Origin: Phlebopus portentosus
Lineage: Eukaryota; Basidiomycota; Agaricomycetes; Boletales; Boletinellaceae
Length of the DNA stretch: 64,000 nt
Direction of reading: 5' to 3'
NCBI GenBank assembly: GCA_037892935.1
Contig: JAYXKI010000003.1
Coordinates: 2,728,001-2,792,000, forward strand
Below the pieces are notes generated by a model. It saw only the letters and a list, made by a program, of their open reading frames with translations, ran no database searches and was not told the DNA's origin. Position numbers and translations under genes: made by a program. The number at the start of each line of letters is the position of its first letter. Within the stretch, counting starts at the first letter, position 1. Positions 24,650-40,817 of the stretch are shown one piece after another.

Positions 24650-25425
24650 ACATCTGTGACAGCCTCATCTGGGTTGCCAGACCTGCATAGCGCCTTGCTG
24701 TTGAAGGAGTCAGAAAAGAGCTTGACAATATAGAGGATACGGGTGGAACCTTCAACAAGGACCATCTCGTGTACATTAGACTTATCGACCTTGGAGTCCC
24801 AGAGAACCTTCTCAACAGGCTCAAGTATAGACCGGAAGAGATCTTGGCATAACTTCTCGAATTGTCACGGGTGATCAAGGTGTAAAAGTTGATACCCTCA
24901 TAGAGTGAATCAATTTTGATGGTCATCTGCACTGCCGACAACAGTGTATGCTTCACATACTTGCAAGTGGTACAGAGTCGGTAAAGAGCACAAGGGTTCA
25001 ACACAAGATTCAATGAAAGATCTAAGAAAATCAGTGTCAATACCATGATCGTACACCATTGGAATGACTTAAATTATATACCCTTCTTATTCTTGTGCTT
25101 GAACTCCTGAATGAAGTGGTTTACGAGGTAATTGTCAAAGTTCTCATCACCCAAGTGACTATTGCCAGCAGTCACCTTGACTTTGAAGATACCCTCCTTA
25201 ATGGTCAAGAGTGACACATTAAAGGTACCTTCACCAAGGTCAAAAATAAGGACATTGCACTTGCCTTGGAGCTTCTTGTCAAGACCATACACGATAGCAG
25301 CCACCGTGGGTTCATTGATGAGTCGGAAGAAGTTGAGGCCAGAGATGACACTAGTGTCACCTGACGTTGCGAGTTGTTAAAGTAAGTAGGAACAGTGATG
25401 ATGGCCTCAGTGATGGTGCTGTAAA
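24650..25425 (-). pseudogene. HSP70 pseudogene (left arm)
   Basis: Minus-strand sequence matches HSP70-type chaperone ATPase and interdomain segments. A TVTNAVITVPAYF-like start is read as [13 protein letters not shown] near 25400. It is followed by [34 protein letters not shown] and [13 protein letters not shown] (25304-25080). After a break come [15 protein letters not shown] and [17 protein letters not shown] in shifted frames (about 24950-24800), then NPDEAV. The canonical GGGTF is changed to GEGTF. Several frameshifts and missing ends make it non-functional. TTTTACAG before the first segment resembles a retained splice acceptor. Confidence 0.88.
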
Positions 25426-27831: not shown

Positions 27832-28915
27832 CAGCTAGTTGCAAAATTGTTGGCAATCATGTGATTTCATCACTTTTCATGTCATAAGAGCCTCAAAACA
27901 CAAATTAAATCATATCTCACCCAAAACTCAACAGTTTTATATCATCTAAGTTGCTAAATCCATCTTTTCGAAAGGGCTTTCATTTTAAAACAAAGGTTGA
28001 GAGAATAGATAAAAATGTGACCCCCAAATAGTAAAAATATCATTTTTTACCTCTTCCTTGCATGTGCATTTTTTTCTGCACTCCATGCTGGTTCAGCACC
28101 TCTCCAAAGCTGTTCAGAATGATAATATAATTATAATATGAATTTACAGACTGAGTTTGAGTTAAACTGTGTACTAGAATGTACTGCTTTGAGGCATGCC
28201 TGAATTACTCAAAACTCATCATTTACCCCTAGCCTCCTAAGCTCCAGGAAAAATTCTTACAGGCCAGATTGATGCATAAAAATTTATTTTGGATATAATA
28301 GACTAGATTTGTGTACTAGCTAGGGCCTCAGCATCCACTGGTGAGCTAGGAAGATACTATCTAGAATAGTGCATACAACTAGAACCTTATGCTCAGCCCA
28401 GCTCACCAGTGGATGCTGAGGCCCTAGCTAGTACACAAATCTAGTCTATTATATCCAAAATGAATTTTTATGCATCAATCTGGCCTGTAAGAATTTTTCC
28501 TGGAGCTTGGGAGGCTAGGGGTAAATGATGAGTTTTGAGTAATTCAGGCATGCCTCAAAGCAGTACATTCTGGTGCACAATTCAACTCAAACTCAGTCTG
28601 TAAATTCATATTATAATCATATTATCATTCTGGACAGCTTTGGGGAGGTGCTGAACCAGCATAGAGCACAGAAAAAAATGTACATGCAAGGAAAAGGTAA
28701 AAAATAATATTTTTACTATTTGGGGGTCACATTTTTACCTATTCTTTCAATCTTTGTTTCTGAATGAAAGCCCTTTCGAAAATATGAATTTAGCAACTTA
28801 GATGATGTGAAACTGTTGAGTTTTGGGTGAGATATGATTTTATTTGTGTTTTGAGGCTCTTGTAATATGAAAAGTGATGAAATCACATGATTGCTAACAA
28901 TTTTGCAACTAGCTG
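27832..28915. mobile_element. Complete foldback element (FB3) with 516-bp arms
   Basis: Two arms, 27832-28347 and 28400-28915, are inverted copies of each other around a 52-bp loop. The ends are CAGCTAGTTGC...GCAACTAGCTG, flanked by TA on both sides (27830-27831 and 28916-28917). This fits a non-autonomous element of the Tc1/mariner target type (TA). No coding capacity is present; the frames inside are repeat by-products. Confidence 0.88.
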
Positions 28916-30847
28916 TAAGTGGAGACTGGCAACCCCGAAGGTTGATGCATGCCTTCCCATGGGTCATACCACGTTGTGCCGGAGCATCGATCACTTGAAT
29001 CCTTATCGCACTTCACAGTTTTGTCTTTCAATAGCTATACATTGTTCACAACACTTAAATTGTCATTTTTAAAATGTTTGTCATATGCAAATTATCTCAA
29101 AGAATCAGATTCCGTATTTTAGAAAGAATTCTGTAAAAAATTGGAAAAGATATGGTGGAATCTTAAGTATTTCTCAAAAACTAGGAATGATTGAAAAAAA
29201 AAAATTTAATACGATTTTCGAAAATCATGCAAAAATAGACCTTGTTCATTCAAACAAGTGAAATTGTAAATGTGGAAGTCTTGAAGCTCAAGGATTTCAT
29301 GAGAGTTTTTGTGTATGCCGGGGGTCAGAATAAGGAAAATAACAAGCACGTGATTTATAGAACCAATGTTGAACTTCTTGAGATTCTGTTCCCATTATCA
29401 AGAAGCAACCATTCTGGGTAAAGTTCTGATAGCATCACGTATGTAATTGATTACTAAGTGCATACAGGACATTTACATATTTTTATTGCAGATGGTGTTT
29501 ATAAAGAAAAGCGAAAAAAGGCAGCTCTTAGCTCAACACGCCTGATCTGTGAGGCTGTCGAACCTACAGGCAGAAAAGGAAAATGTTCAACCTGATAAAT
29601 TAACGAGGTCGACATCTGCAATAATCAACAGTTTAACCAATGAGGTGGAGAAAAAGAATGAGGAACTCACCAAAACTCTTCAAAAGAGCATCGAGCACAC
29701 AATAAACATTGACAGAATGCAAGCAGAGCTTGAGGATCTGAGGGAGAAGAATTCATCAATGAAAGATGAGCTTGAAAAATCTCAGAAGGCACTTACCGAG
29801 ATCACAAACCAGTTGCGCACCTCTCAAGATCAAACCTCAGCTTCTCTCGAGGACCTTCGTTACCGTCGGACCATTATCAGGCATTTACAAGAATCAAAAT
29901 CAATCCTTACAAAGAAGATCAAGCTGTTAGAAACACGGTCGACACAGAAGAAACCAGAGCTCACCAAAGCAGAGGCTGAAAATCGAGTTCTGACTGCCCA
30001 GCTCAGTTCTTATTCACATCAACTCTTGTGCATGACCATGGAGCTATCTAAACACGAATTCAAGTGTGTTATTGCCAATGAACAATATCAAAGCTTGCAG
30101 AACAATCTTAATGCTCTGTGCAAGAAGAGTCAGCAAAGAGACGAGTACTATGGGCAAAAGATCAACAACTTACGAGCACGGCTTCTAGGAAAGCAGAAGA
30201 AACACAAAGCTGTTCAAGTTCAGCTTTTCCGAGCTCAAAAACAAATATATCAGCTCAATTCTTTCAAACAAAATGCATTCTAGATGGTCCAGAATACCCA
30301 TAAAGGCTATTATAGTACTTGCCTTTGTGGTATCATATGCCGGCTTTGTGCTCATAGTGTCTCAATGGGGAAGTGTGGAACTGTCATCTCAGAGTTCATG
30401 AGATTTCACTGTACGTCTCTGGGGATCAGCTCATCTAAAACAAAGATATGAATCCCGAGTGCATGCACTGTTTCAAGAATTATTGGTGAGGCCAATATTG
30501 CCTCGAAGCTCCAACTTGGATGGGACCTGAAATGAACAGAAGGTTTGTCCATGATATTGAAGGCTTTGAGAAAGAAAAACTGACTCACAATCCATTCAGG
30601 ATTTACAACAGGTGGCGATGGAACTACGAACAAGAGTCAAAATTTTGATTCACTTCACTTTAATATCCGGATCCCAGACAATAACTCACCATTAGCTGTT
30701 TCAGAACCTTCGATCATTCGTAGGGTATGCTTTGCAGAAGTGCGACTGGAAGGTAATCATTGAGCTGAGACTCAGATAAGGGGGATGTCGGAGCTCTGGA
30801 AGACATGATTGAATTATTCAATTAGAGTCCTCTGGCTATACAAGACG

Positions 30848-30902
30848 GTGAGACTATACTCAGCTAGGATCTAAGCATAGATGCTAACTCGAGTCTTCAC
30901 AG
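30848..30902 (+). other. Introner-like intron A (55 nt)
   Basis: Begins GTGAGACTATACTCAG and ends CTTCACAG, with a GCTAACTCGAGTC branch-site-like block. Splicing it restores a continuous frame (phase 1) between IQDG and PESES. The first 26 nt are identical to introns B and C. Confidence 0.85.
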
Positions 30903-31539
30903 GTCCAGAAAGTGAGTCCTTCAATATCTAGAAGCTTGCTTCAAAGTATCATGGATCACATAGGGATCATGCTGAAGATCAAAAAGCAAAACATCAGTTA
31001 CTTGCATCATGGAAGGAGGAAATGACTCACCTGGCACTTAGGTCTCACCGCTTTTTTTTGCTAACTCAAGAGAAGAGGGATGCATTCGTTCTTGAAGCAA
31101 AGAAGAAAATGATCGAGGATCTGGAAGGCGAATCAGTCTGGAGTTCATTAACTGCTAAAGAACACAATAAAAAAAGACTTATCTCTTATTAATAAACTGG
31201 TCGAAGAACTTGCGAGGGAGGCCATGAAGAAACTTCCAGAGCATGAAAGGCGCAAAATGAGCCTTTTCGTTTGGGCTGGTTGTGGAATGCACAAGAAACT
31301 CAATTCTATGAAAGGGGGCGATTCAGCAATGCGAGAAGAATGGAAAAATCATGGGATCTCACCTCGAATTCTTGCTAATAAGGATAATGCGGCCATCTTG
31401 GAATTAGCTGAGGAGGATAATGATGTGGAACAGGAGAAAACAGCAGCTGAGAAGCATGCCACTGAGGTGTCAAAAGCCAGTGGAGTGAAGCTCAGCTCCC
31501 TGATGGGAATGCTGTTGAACGACAAAGATGACAAGAAAG

Positions 31540-31606
31540 GTGAGACTATACTCAGCTAGGATCTATGTACAGTACTCACTCGAGTCTCGCATGTTTACAC
31601 ATGCAG
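31540..31606 (+). other. Introner-like intron B (67 nt)
   Basis: Begins GTGAGACTATACTCAG and ends CACATGCAG, with ACTCACTCGAGTC at the branch-site position. It lies between NKDDKKG and the segment before FPDTSNTWY (phase 1). Confidence 0.87.
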
Positions 31607-31959
31607 GATGGCACCATATTTTTTGAGATTGGGCCGAGAAGCACCTGAAAATAATGTTCACCTTTCCAGACACATCGAACACCTGGTACTCGTCATATCT
31701 GGATGCCGCCGCTGAGATTCTTGCACATCTCAGCTCGTACCTTGAGTTTATGGATTCAATTCGCTATTCTAAAGTCAGACTGGCATTCAATCATCTTGAA
31801 GAAAATGTTTACTATAGATTGCAGGACGCAGCTACTCTCACTGAACTTGCCTATCTTGCACTGTACCGTGAGGCTATTTCAGTGGATTATATCGCATCTA
31901 TTCATGGCAAATCTATTGAAGAAGTGAATGCTCTGGGACTTGGATCAAGGTTGGAGCAG

Positions 31960-32024
31960 GTGAGACTATACTCAGCTAGGATCTATTGTATAGGTGCTAA
32001 CTTGAGTCTTGCATATTTACTCAG
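31960..32024 (+). other. Introner-like intron C (65 nt)
   Basis: Begins GTGAGACTATACTCAG and ends TTTACTCAG, with GCTAACTTGAGTC at the branch-site position. It joins RLEQ to VKRYLQ in phase 0. The flanking exons are unrelated to those of introns A and B. Confidence 0.88.
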
Positions 32025-32879
32025 GTCAAGCGCTACTTGCAGATGCTGCTTGACTCGCCGCAGATTATTCTTTCGTCTCAGGCTCAGCCTGAGAAGGCCA
32101 CCCTGGATGGAAATAAGACCTGGAATTGCCCCGATGCAATCGAAGCCATTCAAAACCTTATTACCGAAGGGAGACTGCTAAAGCTGGAGGCCCTTTTCAG
32201 AGCATTTTTGATGGGAGCATTGTCTACCTGGGAGCGATTCTCATCAGAATTCAGTGATGATAGTATAATATCAGCACTTACCGAAGAAGAAAAGGAGCTG
32301 GCATGGATTCCAGCAACAAATAATGCAAATGAGGGAGCACTTGGCTCCTACAGGGTTTTTCAACGAAAAAATCCATATAGATCTTTGAAACTATTCAATT
32401 CGCTATTCAGATACCGCCGGAATAACACTGAAGAATTTATAGAGACTGTACTTACCGATGAAGAACACCTTAAATTCTTGCAAGCATAGGTGCGTGCTGA
32501 GGATGCAAAGAGATTGGATAGGAAGAGGCGGCATGAGGTCACTGCAGAGAGGGATCAGGAATAAGTTGCTAAGAAAATCAAGTGCAACTTACAGATGCAG
32601 AAGAAGATGGAACACGAAGCACGAATTGAATCAGCCAGCCTGGAGCTGGACAGCTTGAATGCTGAGCAAATGACTCTCCCTGAGATCAAACTTCAGCTTG
32701 CGAAATTCAGGAAAATTTACAGAAATGACATACCTGCTGACAAGACAATGTCAAAGAAAGCTAAAAAAACAAGCCGTTTTGCTTGTTTTGATTGACAGAT
32801 ATAACTCTGAACATTCACCTGAACCTGATGAGAAGAACAAGTAGCAAATCTAGTTTGGTATTCGGGATTTACGCTTCAC

Positions 32880-33430
32880 GCTCATTGCCATTGCTTCGAG
32901 CTCTTGCCTATTGTAAGGCCTTGTTCTCCATACAAACTTGCTGGCGGATGATGACCTTTCGTTATCGTATCATTGCAGTCTATGACAAATGTGTCCATAT
33001 CTCTGTACAATGGTGAAACCTCGTAACTCTCACCTTGCATCCACTTGTAGATAAAGAAGACACCACCAGGATACACTATATGCACGGTGAACCAGGTCGC
33101 CTCATGTCGCAATACTAGTCCTGAGGGTGTTTATGCACATAGAACCGGTGTAATAAATTTAGTATTGTACTGCACAATTGACATAACATGAAATCTAATG
33201 GCATGCGCACCTTGGCCAAATGCCTACATTCTGAATAGCAGTCGCCACCCTCAAAAATCTTGAGGTATGTATCTAGATTAACTTAAAGAATAACATTTGT
33301 CATAGAATCTTTGTAGTAGTTTATCTGTGCTCATTTTCGGGGAAAGACATGGCAATGGGCTGTTGGATCATTTGGTAATTCCAAACATTTTTGGCATCCT
33401 GGAGGCTTAGAAGTCTTCTTTGAAGCTTAA
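32880..33430 (-). pseudogene. Convergent minus-strand coding relic in the DNA transposon
   Basis: Minus-strand reading gives protein-like pieces: PPGCQKC...HCHVF (about 33415-33345, a possible Cys/His cluster), YLKIFEGGDCYSECRHLAK (about 33265-33210) and WFTVHIVYPGGVFFIYKW (about 33100-33050). The pieces are separated by stops and perhaps introns. It faces the main transposon gene and may be the element's second product. I do not recognise the family. Confidence 0.45.
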
Positions 33431-33649
33431 ATATATAATTTACATGCGTCACAATGTGCCCCACAAGTCTTCATTACAGATCACACCAGATCTTCAGGGA
33501 TAAACTTCAGGACAACGTGCTAGCATATGTAAAACCAAGGTGAAACATTTTGATCGACACTAATTACTACACAAGGTAGGTATTCAAACTTCGACTGAAA
33601 AAAAATGGGCACGCGGGGACCTTCAGGGTTGCCAGTCCCTACTGTAAGT

Positions 33650-34852: not shown

Positions 34853-37209
34853 CCACATCAGGAAATCAGTCTATTTGAGTTATTAATGGATAGTGAGTTA
34901 TAACACCATAGTAGTTCATAGTAGTGCATAGTATACTATAGTAATATATAGTAATATATAGATACATATAGTATTCTATAGTAATACATAGTATATAGAT
35001 ATGAATAGCAATTAATAGTATTACATAGTTTGATACCTCTGTATAGGGCCTGGTAGACAGTTATAGGTAATAGTTCAAAGAAGTATATAGCTGTTTATAG
35101 TGGTGAGCAATTCATAACAGTATTTAGATAGCAATAGAGGTTAGTAATATATAGTCAATATATGATTAGTTATATATAGTAATATAGTAATATATAGATG
35201 CATATAGATGATATCCTATAGTAACATATACTACATAGATATAAATAGTAATCGATAGTATTATATTGTCTGATATCTCTGTATAGATCCTAATAAATAG
35301 TTATAGTCCATAGTTTAAAGAAGTATATAGTTGTTTATAGTGGTAAACTGTCTATATTACTGGATAGAGATTAGTAATACATAGTCAATATATGACTCGT
35401 AATATATAGTAATATATAAATGCATATAGATGATATTCTATATCAATATTAGTACATAGTTATGAATAGCAATCAATCACTGTATATTGGAGGTCCTTAA
35501 CACATGCCTGTATAGCTGAATGTACCCAAGATAAGGAAATCTACACAAAAATCTGTCTTATATCACACAGAAAATTTGTGTAGAACAAGGTACATTAGGT
35601 ACACAAATATATGCATTTCTGTGTAGATCACCTAATATAAATGTCTGTATAGTTTCGTCTAGCTGACATGGTGTTTGATTAGGTTTTGAGAGTTGATATA
35701 CAAGAACTGGACTAGATTTGCATAATAGAACTATGTAAATCTATACAGATCTACATGAGCCAGTGCCAGTATTTGACGGGCTTAGATTTATTTTGACATG
35801 TTGTCCTCTTTGTCTCTTGCCACCACTGTCATGCCACTCTTTTCACCCTCAGCACCTACAAATCATCTCCATCCCTGCTTCATCCTCCTCATTCATGACT
35901 GTTTTACAGCACCGTCACTGAGGCCATCATCACTGTTCCTGCTTACTTTAACAACTTGCAACGTCAGGCGATACTAGTGTCATCTCTGGCCTCAACTTCT
36001 TCCGACTCATCAATGAACTCACAGTGGCTGCTATCGTGTATGGTCTTGACAAGAAGCTCCAAGGCAAGTGCAATGTCCTTATTTTTGACCTTGGTGAAGG
36101 TACCTTTAATGTGTCACTCTTGACCATTGAGGAGGGTATCTTCAAAGTCAAGGTGACTGCTGGCAATAGTCACTTGGGTGATGAGAACTTTGACAATTAC
36201 CTCGTAAACCACTTCATTCAGGAGTTCAAGCACAAGAATAAGAAGGGTATATAATTTAAGTCATTCTAATAGTGTACGATCATGGTATTGACACTGATTT
36301 TCTTAAATCTTTCATTGAATCTTGTGTTGAACCCTTGTGCTCTTTACCGACTCTGTACCACTTGCAAGTATGTGAAGCATACACTGTTGTCGGCAGTGCA
36401 GATGACCATCAAAATTGATTCACTCTATGAGGGTATCAACTTTTACACCTTGATCACCCGTGACAATTCGAGAAGTTATGCCAAGATCTCTTCCGGTCTA
36501 TACTTGAGCCTGTTGAGAAGGTTCTCTGGGACTCCAAGGTCAATAAGTCTAATGTACATGAGATGGTCCTTGTTGAAGGTTCTACCCATATCCTCTGTAT
36601 TGTCAAGCTCTTTTCTGACTCCTTTAACAGCAAGGCACTATGCAGGTCTGGCAACCCAGATGAGGCTGTCATGGATGTCTACATGATAACTTGATGGGGA
36701 AATGTATTGATTTTTTGGCACATACTGTCATCACCAGAGACCCAAATCTGGAACTGGACAAAGTTGCTACACCAAAGAGCATCATCATGCCTCTCACATA
36801 CCAAGAAAGAGGTTAGTAGGAAGAGAATCTTGGTTGATGTGTGATTTAAAATTGTTTGACAGTGACTCCGTACAATATCACGTACTTATAAGAGCTTGTG
36901 CAGAATGGATCGAGAGAATACCCTCAAGTGCAATATGTGATTCAAGATATCGGAAAGCGTATAGATCTTTGGTACAATAAGCATATGGATGTCTTTCTTC
37001 AGTATCAACGTGGTTATGTCATCTTTAACCAACAGCTATCGTTGCACAAAATGTCTATAGTGTGTCTCCAGGTCCAACTAGTGCCCTATTTGAGTGCATA
37101 CCCAACCTATATGTTCATGTCTGAACTCTGACCAATTTTATGCAGGCTTTCGTCTCAATCTTTCCATCACTCCTCTGTACAATGCCGGCTTCCATGGTGA
37201 TGAATGAAC
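34853..37209. repeat. Right arm of the large inverted repeat
   Basis: Inverted copy of 24119-26476, beginning CATCAGGAAATCAGTC and matching up to GATGAATGAAC near 37209, where the left arm is cut by Copia-2. It contains three AT-rich tandem units (34910-35460), an HSP70 relic and an unidentified 77-codon piece (36898-37131) that is also present in the left arm. Confidence 0.93.
35910..36690 (+). pseudogene. HSP70 pseudogene (right arm)
   Basis: Plus-strand counterpart of the left-arm relic. It carries [27 protein letters not shown] and [11 protein letters not shown] (36030-36250), then [15 protein letters not shown] and [17 protein letters not shown] across frame shifts (36400-36530) and NPDEAV near 36655. 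Both arms share the GEGTF change and the same breaks, so the decay began before or was copied with the duplication. Confidence 0.88.
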
Positions 37210-38422: not shown

Positions 38423-40817
38423 TCAACCAGCAACATCACCTTGCACATGCTTGACTTGCCAGTAGGCTGGCAGTTTCAGGCTCACACCCTTCATTGATGC
38501 TGACCACAGGTATGAGATTTCATTGATGCCTTGCTGTAGGGTGTTGGGAGATAACTTCTTGTTGTTATGGAGGACGGTGTAGTGAACTGCACGAGCAATA
38601 CCTTGCATGCCTGCATGAGCCTGCAAAGAGAAATTGTAGTCGTAAATGCTCGTCATGCCCTGGTCTATGCTTGTTCCCACCATAGAGCACGAGGTCTTGT
38701 CAGTCGTCATAATATGCAGGATGCATCTGATAAACTTCAGTGACTTCATGGAGACTCGGGCATTTGCCAGAGATTGCTCTCGAGCTGTACGCAATGGTTT
38801 CATAATTCAGCAAGACAACGGACCAATAGCTATCAAGTCTCACAAATGATGTACATGTTTTCATATCCTTTCACTCTATCTCATGTATGACGTACCTACA
38901 TTTGATCGAGCTTTGGAGATCCAGCAGCTTATAAACTGTGAGTCCTCAACCTTGCCGTCAAGTTGTTGTCTGGATCTTTATGCCTGCAAAAGCTCTGCTG
39001 TTTCTAAAGGAGTTCTGTGATGATCAAAGAGGAAAGGCTGAATCACCTAACAAATTAGAGATGCATGTATACCGTTGTCTCAGCCTCATCCATGACCAGC
39101 ACGAACAAAATGACAGACCTTCACCACATATCGCCGCCAACCTAGCCTTCCAGCTTATATTCCATTTCCGCAGTGAAGTCCAGGCTGCCATAGTCCGATC
39201 ATGAAGACTTCGAAGCTCAGAGTCAATGGGGCTGCCATGCAAACATTTGCCAAACTAGCGACCACCACTGATGGTCGTCAACATCATCGACACTTGTTTG
39301 ACGGGCAGCCTCAGGAATATGCAAGTTCCAGTGTTTTTGTACAGCAACTCAAGAAACTGTATAGGGGCATTTCGAACTTAGGATCATCTGCGGCTGGGGT
39401 AGAACCAAGTCTGATGACCTTTGCTACAAGTGATGTAAGTCAACTTTGGTTTGTATTTCTTCAGTTCACCAAATGCTTCATTCAGCTGCTTGATCTCAGT
39501 GGCTATTACCCGCGCGTGCTGGCCGTCTGAAATACTGGCACGGAATATAAGGATCCATTCAGGGAACAAGCCCATGCTTTGACGGTAGTTCTTTAAGCAT
39601 TCCAGAATCATACCACGTAAGTTTTCAACTGTCTATGAATAGCTGCATCAGGCACCTGCATAATAGCATAAAAACAAGAGCTCACCTCTTCTTTTACTCT
39701 CTGAAGGGAGACACTTGCATGGCACTGGGGTGAAGTTCACGTCGCATGACACCACAACCACTGCGATACCAGGTGTGCCCTTGACCGCATTCCCACCTGG
39801 CTTAATCACATCGAACCCGACCACCATCATATTTGCCAGCCGTTTCAGAGAAGCAGGCTCTAGCCAATGGTTGACCCCACCGAGCTTTGTGTTAACCTTG
39901 AGCGCGAGATTTGGCAGATACTGATCGTGGCCCTCCTTGTCGAGCATGTTCTCGATGAGGCCAATCATGGACTGGAAGTCCTGGCTGACGTCAAAGTACC
40001 GGTGGAGTCCCGCATAGATGTGCTTATTTTCATTTGACATGAGGGCAAGAACCATTTGGGGCCTGCCTGGCAGTGATTCAAACAACCTTGATACTTTGTC
40101 CACATCCTTATCGTGGTATGGATCCTCTCGACTCAGACGGCGGAGCTGCAGGACCTGCATAATGAAGTCCGAGTTAACATTCATTCTACGTGTGTAACAT
40201 TTTCTGATCAGAGCCTTCACCACCTCACGCACCTGCACCTCGAGCGAGCTGTTGGACTCTTCTATATTCCCATCCTTTAAGACTACAACTGCAAGGCATT
40301 TAAGCTCTGCAAGCCTCACGAACTGAATGCCATGCGCCGTCCAAGATCCATTGACAATTTGTGCACGGCCTGAAGGATAAATCACCAATGGTGCGGGGAG
40401 AACGCGAGCCATGACAACAGCCATATTTGTCGAGATTTTAATTCTAAAGCTGGCCATCGGAGGTGTGCCCTCCTCAAAGCCTAGGAGACGGAGACCCTTG
40501 ATAGTGATTGTCTGTGCATAACCGGCTGGCGTCTTGTTGTTTGCAGCACACAGGGCTGTGCTCTCCCCAGACTTCAGCTCACCCATGAAAAGGGTCCCTG
40601 GTATAATCTTGCACAGCTCGGCTGGTACAAAAACGTCCTTGCCCTCTTTCCTGACATTCACTATGGGCAGGTCATCTGCATGGCGGAGTGTGATGTAGAA
40701 CTCTGTGCGATAGTCAGCACAATTTCTATTCGATCCACAGATGACTTACTTTTCTGGAAATATTCCTCTACTGTGATATTGCTAAATTTTTCACTCTGGA
40801 TCTTTGTCCGTCTCACC
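38423..40817 (-). pseudogene. AGO: Argonaute, PAZ-MID-PIWI part (3' side of the Gypsy insertion)
   Basis: Argonaute proteins bind small guide RNAs and silence complementary transcripts. From the insertion point, the exon 40817-40750 reads VRRTKIQSEKFSNITVEEYF (start of PAZ). After a 47-nt intron (40703-40749), the exon 40702-39686 carries the rest of PAZ (LPIVNV, PAELCKIIPG), MID, and the PIWI start with LALKVNTKLGG and VVGFDVIKPGG. A 57-nt intron (39629-39685) leads to 39628-39400 (LFPEWILIFRASISDGQ, HQTWFYPS). A stretch of about 600 bp without clear coding follows, then the last exon (to 38423) with LQAHAGMQG and VHYTVLHNN. The first PIWI Asp (GFD) and the final His are kept. The middle catalytic Asp, normally in an RDG(V/I)S motif, is Ala (RASIS), so slicing is doubtful even before disruption. 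It is cut from its 5' part by Gypsy-A. Confidence 0.9.

Follow-up and report, generated by a model that had tools for sequence, protein, structure and literature searches.

The window, i.e. the whole stretch of 64,000 nucleotides that was analysed, carries on its + strand a hAT-like DNA transposon with three introns (28920..33641), which is marked by imperfect terminal inverted repeats between 7-bp direct repeats and by the Hermes-like fold of a relative of its protein. The left inverted repeat (28920..28953, + strand) starts with TGGAGACTGGCAACC and pairs with the right one (33608..33641, - strand), the arms being 36 nt long and complementary at 78%. The direct repeats, CTGTAAG at 28913..28919 and at 33642..33648, give a target-site duplication of 7 bp, or of 8 bp if the next, shared terminal T is counted, the hAT criterion being 8 bp; no evident target-site duplication was seen at the loci L013 and L014. 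The element is like the hAT transposons, represented by Hermes, in its transposase fold, terminal inverted repeats and short duplication, but the protein of its family, here called family A, gave no Pfam match above the cut-off.

The transposase gene is interrupted on the + strand by intron 1 of 55 nt (position A1, 30848..30902), intron 2 of 67 nt (A2, 31540..31606) and intron 3 of 65 nt (A3, 31960..32024). All three are GT-AG introns; the claim of the earlier note that their first 26 nt are identical was confirmed in the letters, and the phases that it had given, 1, 1 and 0, agree with the reading frames of a cleaner copy, L012. In the window copy, the exon between introns 1 and 2 (30903..31539, +) contains a frame change, the L012 exon matching it as two pieces in different frames (71 and 78% identity); the exon between introns 2 and 3 (31607..31959, +) is 83% identical to that of L012, and the exon downstream of intron 3 (32025..32768, +) has stop codons. 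The segment 29418-29491 had been taken for an ordinary intron, but its 5' end is GT in the window and GC in L012 and L013, which makes its status as an intron uncertain. The 16-mer GTGAGACTATACTCAG matched the window three times at a tolerance of three mismatches, each time exactly; at the same tolerance its shuffled versions had a mean of 0.81 matches and 4 of 100 reached three, so that the 16-mer count alone is weak evidence, while the 26 common bases are strong.

An Rfam search of the window introns returned nothing at E 1. The fullest copies of the sequence in the genome are two loci, L022 and L024, which lie about 115 kb apart on contig C5 with different flanks, and are identical over 327 bp (L022 locus at L022:3471-3707). 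No enclosing transposon gene was seen at either, and a TATA box, TATATAA, begins 36 nt upstream of both. The Rfam model Plant_U3 (RF01847) aligned to these loci over model positions 1-221 with 32.6 bits, below the gathering score of 80, and an E of 3.1e-7 (9.2e-6 genome-wide); among its six matches genome-wide, L022 and L024 are the best two, ranks three to five are taken by copies of a single transposon intron (E 0.22), and the sixth has an E of 7.3. Below the cut-off, the model also hits 3 of 14 control genomes. Neither L022 nor L024 is listed by RF01846, the fungal U3 model, whose one match lies elsewhere with 18.4 bits against 95. In the alignment of both loci, boxes A' (TACTC), A (AGGATCT), C' (GATGA) and D (TGTCTGA) follow one another in order, with a poorer fit of boxes B and C. 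The available text of PMC5832005 gives box A as GYATCW, the bases in L022 and L024 being GGATCT, and records U3 in all 147 fungal genomes that it surveyed. Our assignment of L022 and L024 to U3 rests on the full-length alignment with ordered boxes A', A, C' and D, together with the absence of any stronger candidate for this RNA, which is universal in the surveyed fungi.

Aligned to the U3 gene L022, intron 1 contains U3 nt 1 to about 48 (30851..30896, +), intron 2 nt 1 to about 65 (31543..31604, +) and intron 3 nt 1 to about 61 (31963..32020, +). We tabled 22 introns, with one row per lineage and position and near-identical copies dropped; kept out of this table were L017 at A2, which is cut by a deletion and has the first block base changed, L034, the sister of L018 at A3, and the relic at A3 of L025. 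In all 22, the stretch that resembles U3 begins at its nt 1 to 3 and extends to nt 48-65, i.e. the fragments have no promoter and are truncated on the 3' side. On the evidence of these alignments, the intron sequence is almost certainly derived from the 5' end of the U3 snoRNA. An inverted repeat in the core had been considered as the terminal repeat of a self-spreading DNA introner, and this was rejected, as the repeat is the U3 hairpin M1.

Across the searched genome (38.4 Mb, 23 contigs), the 26-mer had 48 matches with up to three mismatches and its backwards-read control none; a second core 16-mer, ATACTCAGCTAGGATC, had at least 71 with up to two mismatches, 54 of them exact, and its backwards control 12. 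We fetched 37 loci around the 56 matches with no or one mismatch, the other 15 having two. Of these 56, the U3 genes account for two and a chance match for one (L047, where a 16-mer with one mismatch is found and the similarity ends there); the remaining 53 are fragments at intron positions. By position, 9 fragments stand at A1, 14 at A2, 20 at A3, one in sense and two in antisense at B1, and 7 at B2, i.e. 43 at the three positions of family A, the window's included, and 10 at the two positions of a second family, B. When the U3 locus (321 bases) was searched against the genome with BLAST, 45 places were returned, the two genes and 43 fragments, all of the latter from the 5' part of U3 (query 24-96 of 321) and none from the 3' part; this list does not include 10 of the 53 fragments, namely L017 and nine shortened copies. 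The core 21-mer and 19-mer had no match in viral_contigs and genome_contigs.

Family B matched Pfam Transposase_21 with an E of 2e-4 and 21.1 bits, under the cut-off of 28.6, and is therefore called only tnp2-like; its type is presumably the one named tnp2/Plavaka. Position B1 is occupied by U3 inserts of both orientations, and at B1 and B2 other copies of the family hold unrelated introns. Five positions, one of them with two orientations, make at least five and probably six placements; multiplication of the transposons themselves accounts for the remaining copies. That the introns travel with the DNA transposon, as had been proposed, is supported; other copies of the window's element carry the same three introns. 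Nine loci (L028, L030-L033, L035, L036, L038 and L039) have in common an almost identical unit, 4.5 kb long or more, whose only matched parts were the final transposase exon and U3 intron 3, as in a shortened derivative that multiplied.

Within the introns, the part corresponding to boxes A'/A is a 17-nt block, TATACTCAGCTAGGATC, located on the + strand at 30855..30871 in intron 1, 31547..31563 in intron 2 and 31967..31983 in intron 3. Of the 374 cells that the block makes up in the 22 tabled introns, 1 departs from U3, a count that is biased because the loci were found by a 16-mer overlapping it; the other parts differ in 63 of 286 cells (loop), 16 of 286 (3' side of M1) and 168 of 352 (M2). 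The family A protein search is free of this bias, and all of its 62 matches fall in core-bearing loci or in intronless relatives. Between family A copies, the difference at fourfold sites is 0.40-0.85 for exon 3; for exon 4 it is 0.36-0.62, or 0.23-0.67 when the frame-shifted row L028 is included. For three chosen pairs of introns, the probability that none of the 17 bases has changed is 3.9e-7, 7.2e-8 and 2.8e-5, with independent sites assumed. In three copy pairs of family B, the U3 block is identical at 17 of 17 bases, and nt 7-28 of the ordinary intron at the other position at 12, 14 or 17 of 22. The block is kept in 16 of 17 tabled introns of family A, the exception being A3 of L025, a decayed U3 relic for which 1 of 2000 shuffles was as good, the figures for six other introns being 152 to 1168 of 2000. 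There, 7 of the 17 bases have changed and position 2 is intact in the same copies, and the relic shows the appearance of lost constraint. Judging from these comparisons, the block is reasonably likely to be held by selection.

Such selection could have a reason at the DNA level that is unrelated to U3, e.g. a site for the transposase or for a transcription factor, U3 being the raw material. The block is kept in the antisense copy as well, and the transposon has another conserved palindromic block: a non-coding stretch of 33 nt at 29431-29463 of the window, which encloses the palindrome GTAATNNATTAC, is 94% alike from copy to copy, compared with 72-76% for its surroundings. This stretch occurs at 5 places genome-wide, an Rfam search of the 29418 region returned nothing, and it looks like a regulatory site; as a second non-coding block is conserved to this degree, constraint alone does not indicate a U3 function. 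However, the U3 block is found in hAT-like and tnp2-like elements, whose transposases should bind different sites, and the lower M1 stem has also kept most of its pairs, with a 5' strand of M1 that hardly varies and a pair at the branch-site base that is broken in 9 of the 22 introns. A purely DNA-level reason is, in our view, doubtful.

Our best guess is that the block still acts as RNA, via base pairing or the binding of U3 partners. According to the available text of PMC5832005, the beginning of the 18S rRNA base-pairs with the 5' half of U3's first hairpin (box A' and a portion of box A included), and this is the half of the hairpin that is kept in the introns. A search for the 18S in the assembly gave no match; with an assumed 18S end, pairing was predicted at -14.8 kcal/mol for U3 and -17.6 kcal/mol for the intron, 21 and 9 of 500 shuffles, respectively, being as good, which is a slight advantage over shuffled sequences. 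An RNA partner, a DNA site and protection from homology-dependent silencing are all candidates for the role of the block. As a tentative idea, which we would not expect to hold, each of the two transposons may have domesticated part of U3 as an intron independently of the other, the reason being that it works as a U3 mimic in RNA and pairs with pre-18S rRNA or with U3 partners, such that the splicing or the location of the transposase RNA would track ribosome production, or such that small-RNA silencing would also strike an essential host RNA.

The earlier note had read the introns as introner-like elements. The part of this that stands is that near-identical introns appear to have been gained at unrelated positions; the part that does not is a self-spreading family, as the sequence is the 5' end of U3 and all 53 classified fragments lie within two transposon families, with no spread through host genes of the kind known from introners. 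It could nevertheless be argued that U3 was captured a single time and that the resulting mobile intron copied itself from intron to intron, e.g. by reverse splicing. One sequence at five positions fits such a true introner, and so does U3 nt 4, which is T in both U3 genes and C in all 22 introns. On the other hand, the 5' and 3' boundaries vary between positions, an antisense and a sense insert at one position are left unexplained by reverse splicing, and neither the U3 BLAST nor the classified fragments contain a host-gene copy, which makes the single capture unlikely.

The likeness of the introns might also arise in the absence of selection, through repeated overwriting (gene conversion) by U3 cDNA or by other copies, or through repeated fresh insertion. 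The finding that U3 introns of family B stand at the places of unrelated introns in other copies is compatible with this. Overwriting, however, would renew the whole fragment, yet M2 and the loop differ and the block does not; moreover, introns at the same position have differences of their own in common, which suggests descent, and none has the T of the present-day U3 genes. Repeated renewal therefore seems quite improbable as the source of the likeness. A related question had been raised in the earlier note, where homologous copies carrying the same three introns, by gene conversion of one ancient intron, were named as the finding that would speak against introners. Other copies do carry them, but the same sequence in a second family and in both orientations argues against one ancient gene-converted intron as a full account.

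The direction of change at A1, A2 and A3 is indicated by intronless relatives of family A, of which six were fetched for their long open frames; two near-identical pairs among them reduce these to four lineages. Position A2 is readable in five of the six and A3 in all six, and the exon is continuous in each, with no intron. In the protein search, the two exons adjoin directly at A3 in 12 relatives, the six fetched ones included. The A1 site is crossed by a continuous frame in L018, L025 and L026, and likewise in L019 but for one upstream stop codon. A midpoint-rooted tree of 66 rows groups all six rows with U3 introns into a single clade with a support of 100/99, which also includes proteins of S. 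baumii and S. weigelae, known as proteins alone. The S. baumii protein P0002, the closest in this tree to the window's copy, skips positions 2 and 3 exactly as if spliced, and is also without part of an exon; when 65 proteins were searched for motifs of a read-through intron, none was found. From the reading frames and P0002, we infer that the segments are removed by splicing. The introns likewise appear to have been gained at A1, A2 and A3 rather than lost from the relatives, which upholds the claim of near-identical introns gained at unrelated positions. The opposite, ancestral introns that were lost from the intronless relatives, would accord with the general bias of fungi towards intron loss described in the available part of PMC8476143, but is highly improbable given that the U3-intron copies form a single clade among intronless rows and that A1 is absent from the L018 and L025 branch within these copies.

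To return to capture from U3, it can be hypothesized that a fragment of the RNA, complete at its 5' end and truncated at its 3' end, most likely as cDNA, was captured in the transposase genes of two unrelated DNA transposons, in at least five and probably six events. The complete 5' end, the lack of a promoter and the cut 3' side point to an RNA template, and the capture was probably RNA-mediated, as far as such ends can tell. The flanks of the U3 inserts, inspected by eye, have only AGGT-like sequence in common, which is splice-site sequence too. U3 would bring a ready branch site, GCTAAC, and the target would supply or evolve GT and AG. As GCTAAC agrees with RCTRAY, the consensus for fungal branch sites in the available text of PMC5832005, an inserted U3 5' domain would already be close to an intron; in 9 of the 22 introns, the site reads CTTAC or CTCAC and departs from this consensus. 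The insert would then be removed by splicing, the introns would be carried along as the transposons multiplied, and the box A'/A block would now be under purifying selection inside the transposon introns. We give this whole account, from capture of the U3 5' domain through splicing and spread with the transposons to purifying selection on the block, a probability of roughly 0.75.

Neither introner-like elements nor retroposed fragments of U3 are new. U3 pseudogenes were reportedly the subject of Bernstein 1983. Introner-like elements, as presented in the available text of PMC4457414 and PMC9860276, are alike in being near-identical introns gained at several unrelated positions, some of them at sites of regular introns in other species, as in family B; they differ in that the source here is the U3 snoRNA, with few captures, seen in two transposon families and in no host genes. 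The fungal group named for introners in the available text of PMC9860276 is the Pezizomycotina, with 'basidio' absent from that text and the present host being close to Sanghuangporus, and the words snRNA and snoRNA are absent from the main texts of PMC9860276 and PMC4457414, as far as these are available. In the mammalian U3-LINE-1 chimeras, according to the accessible portions of PMC13174262 and PMC4476161, U3 fragments are recurrently truncated, and the 3'-side truncation, the reuse by reverse transcription and the mostly sense orientation resemble our case; the fungal fragments, in contrast, are intron-like and lie in genes of DNA transposons. The introns within fungal U3 genes treated in PMC5832005, again in its available text, also bring together hairpin M1 and the spliceosome, but the arrangement is reversed, with U3 inside an intron here; L022 and L024 align to the U3 model with no intron in M1. 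Intron-encoded snoRNAs, for which we refer to the available part of PMC3511168, share with our introns the snoRNA sequence in introns and the mobility of snoRNAs, but here the U3 sequence is limited to the 5' domain and has neither box C nor box D, and no complete snoRNA could be released.

In the open-access literature, to which the search extended and which excludes subscription papers, we found no report of spliceosomal introns derived from U3 or from a snoRNA. The origin of new introns is a long-standing question, and the source is seldom recognisable. Here it is visible, and is a structural RNA with a branch site in its own sequence. Other abundant small RNAs would be a class of donors to look for, and the gain is traceable in transposase genes. 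If the block is functional, it would be a case of mobile elements reusing an RNA of ribosome assembly.

Two further features of the window were observed. At 39651-40742 on the - strand lies a piece of an Argonaute gene with matches to PAZ, ArgoL2 and Piwi, the nearest named relatives of which are three Sanghuangporus proteins from three species (77-81% identity); RNA silencing probably exists in the host. Two almost identical open frames, oppositely oriented, flank the transposon at 25074-25376 (-) and 35952-36254 (+), and we take them to resemble a piece of HSP70.
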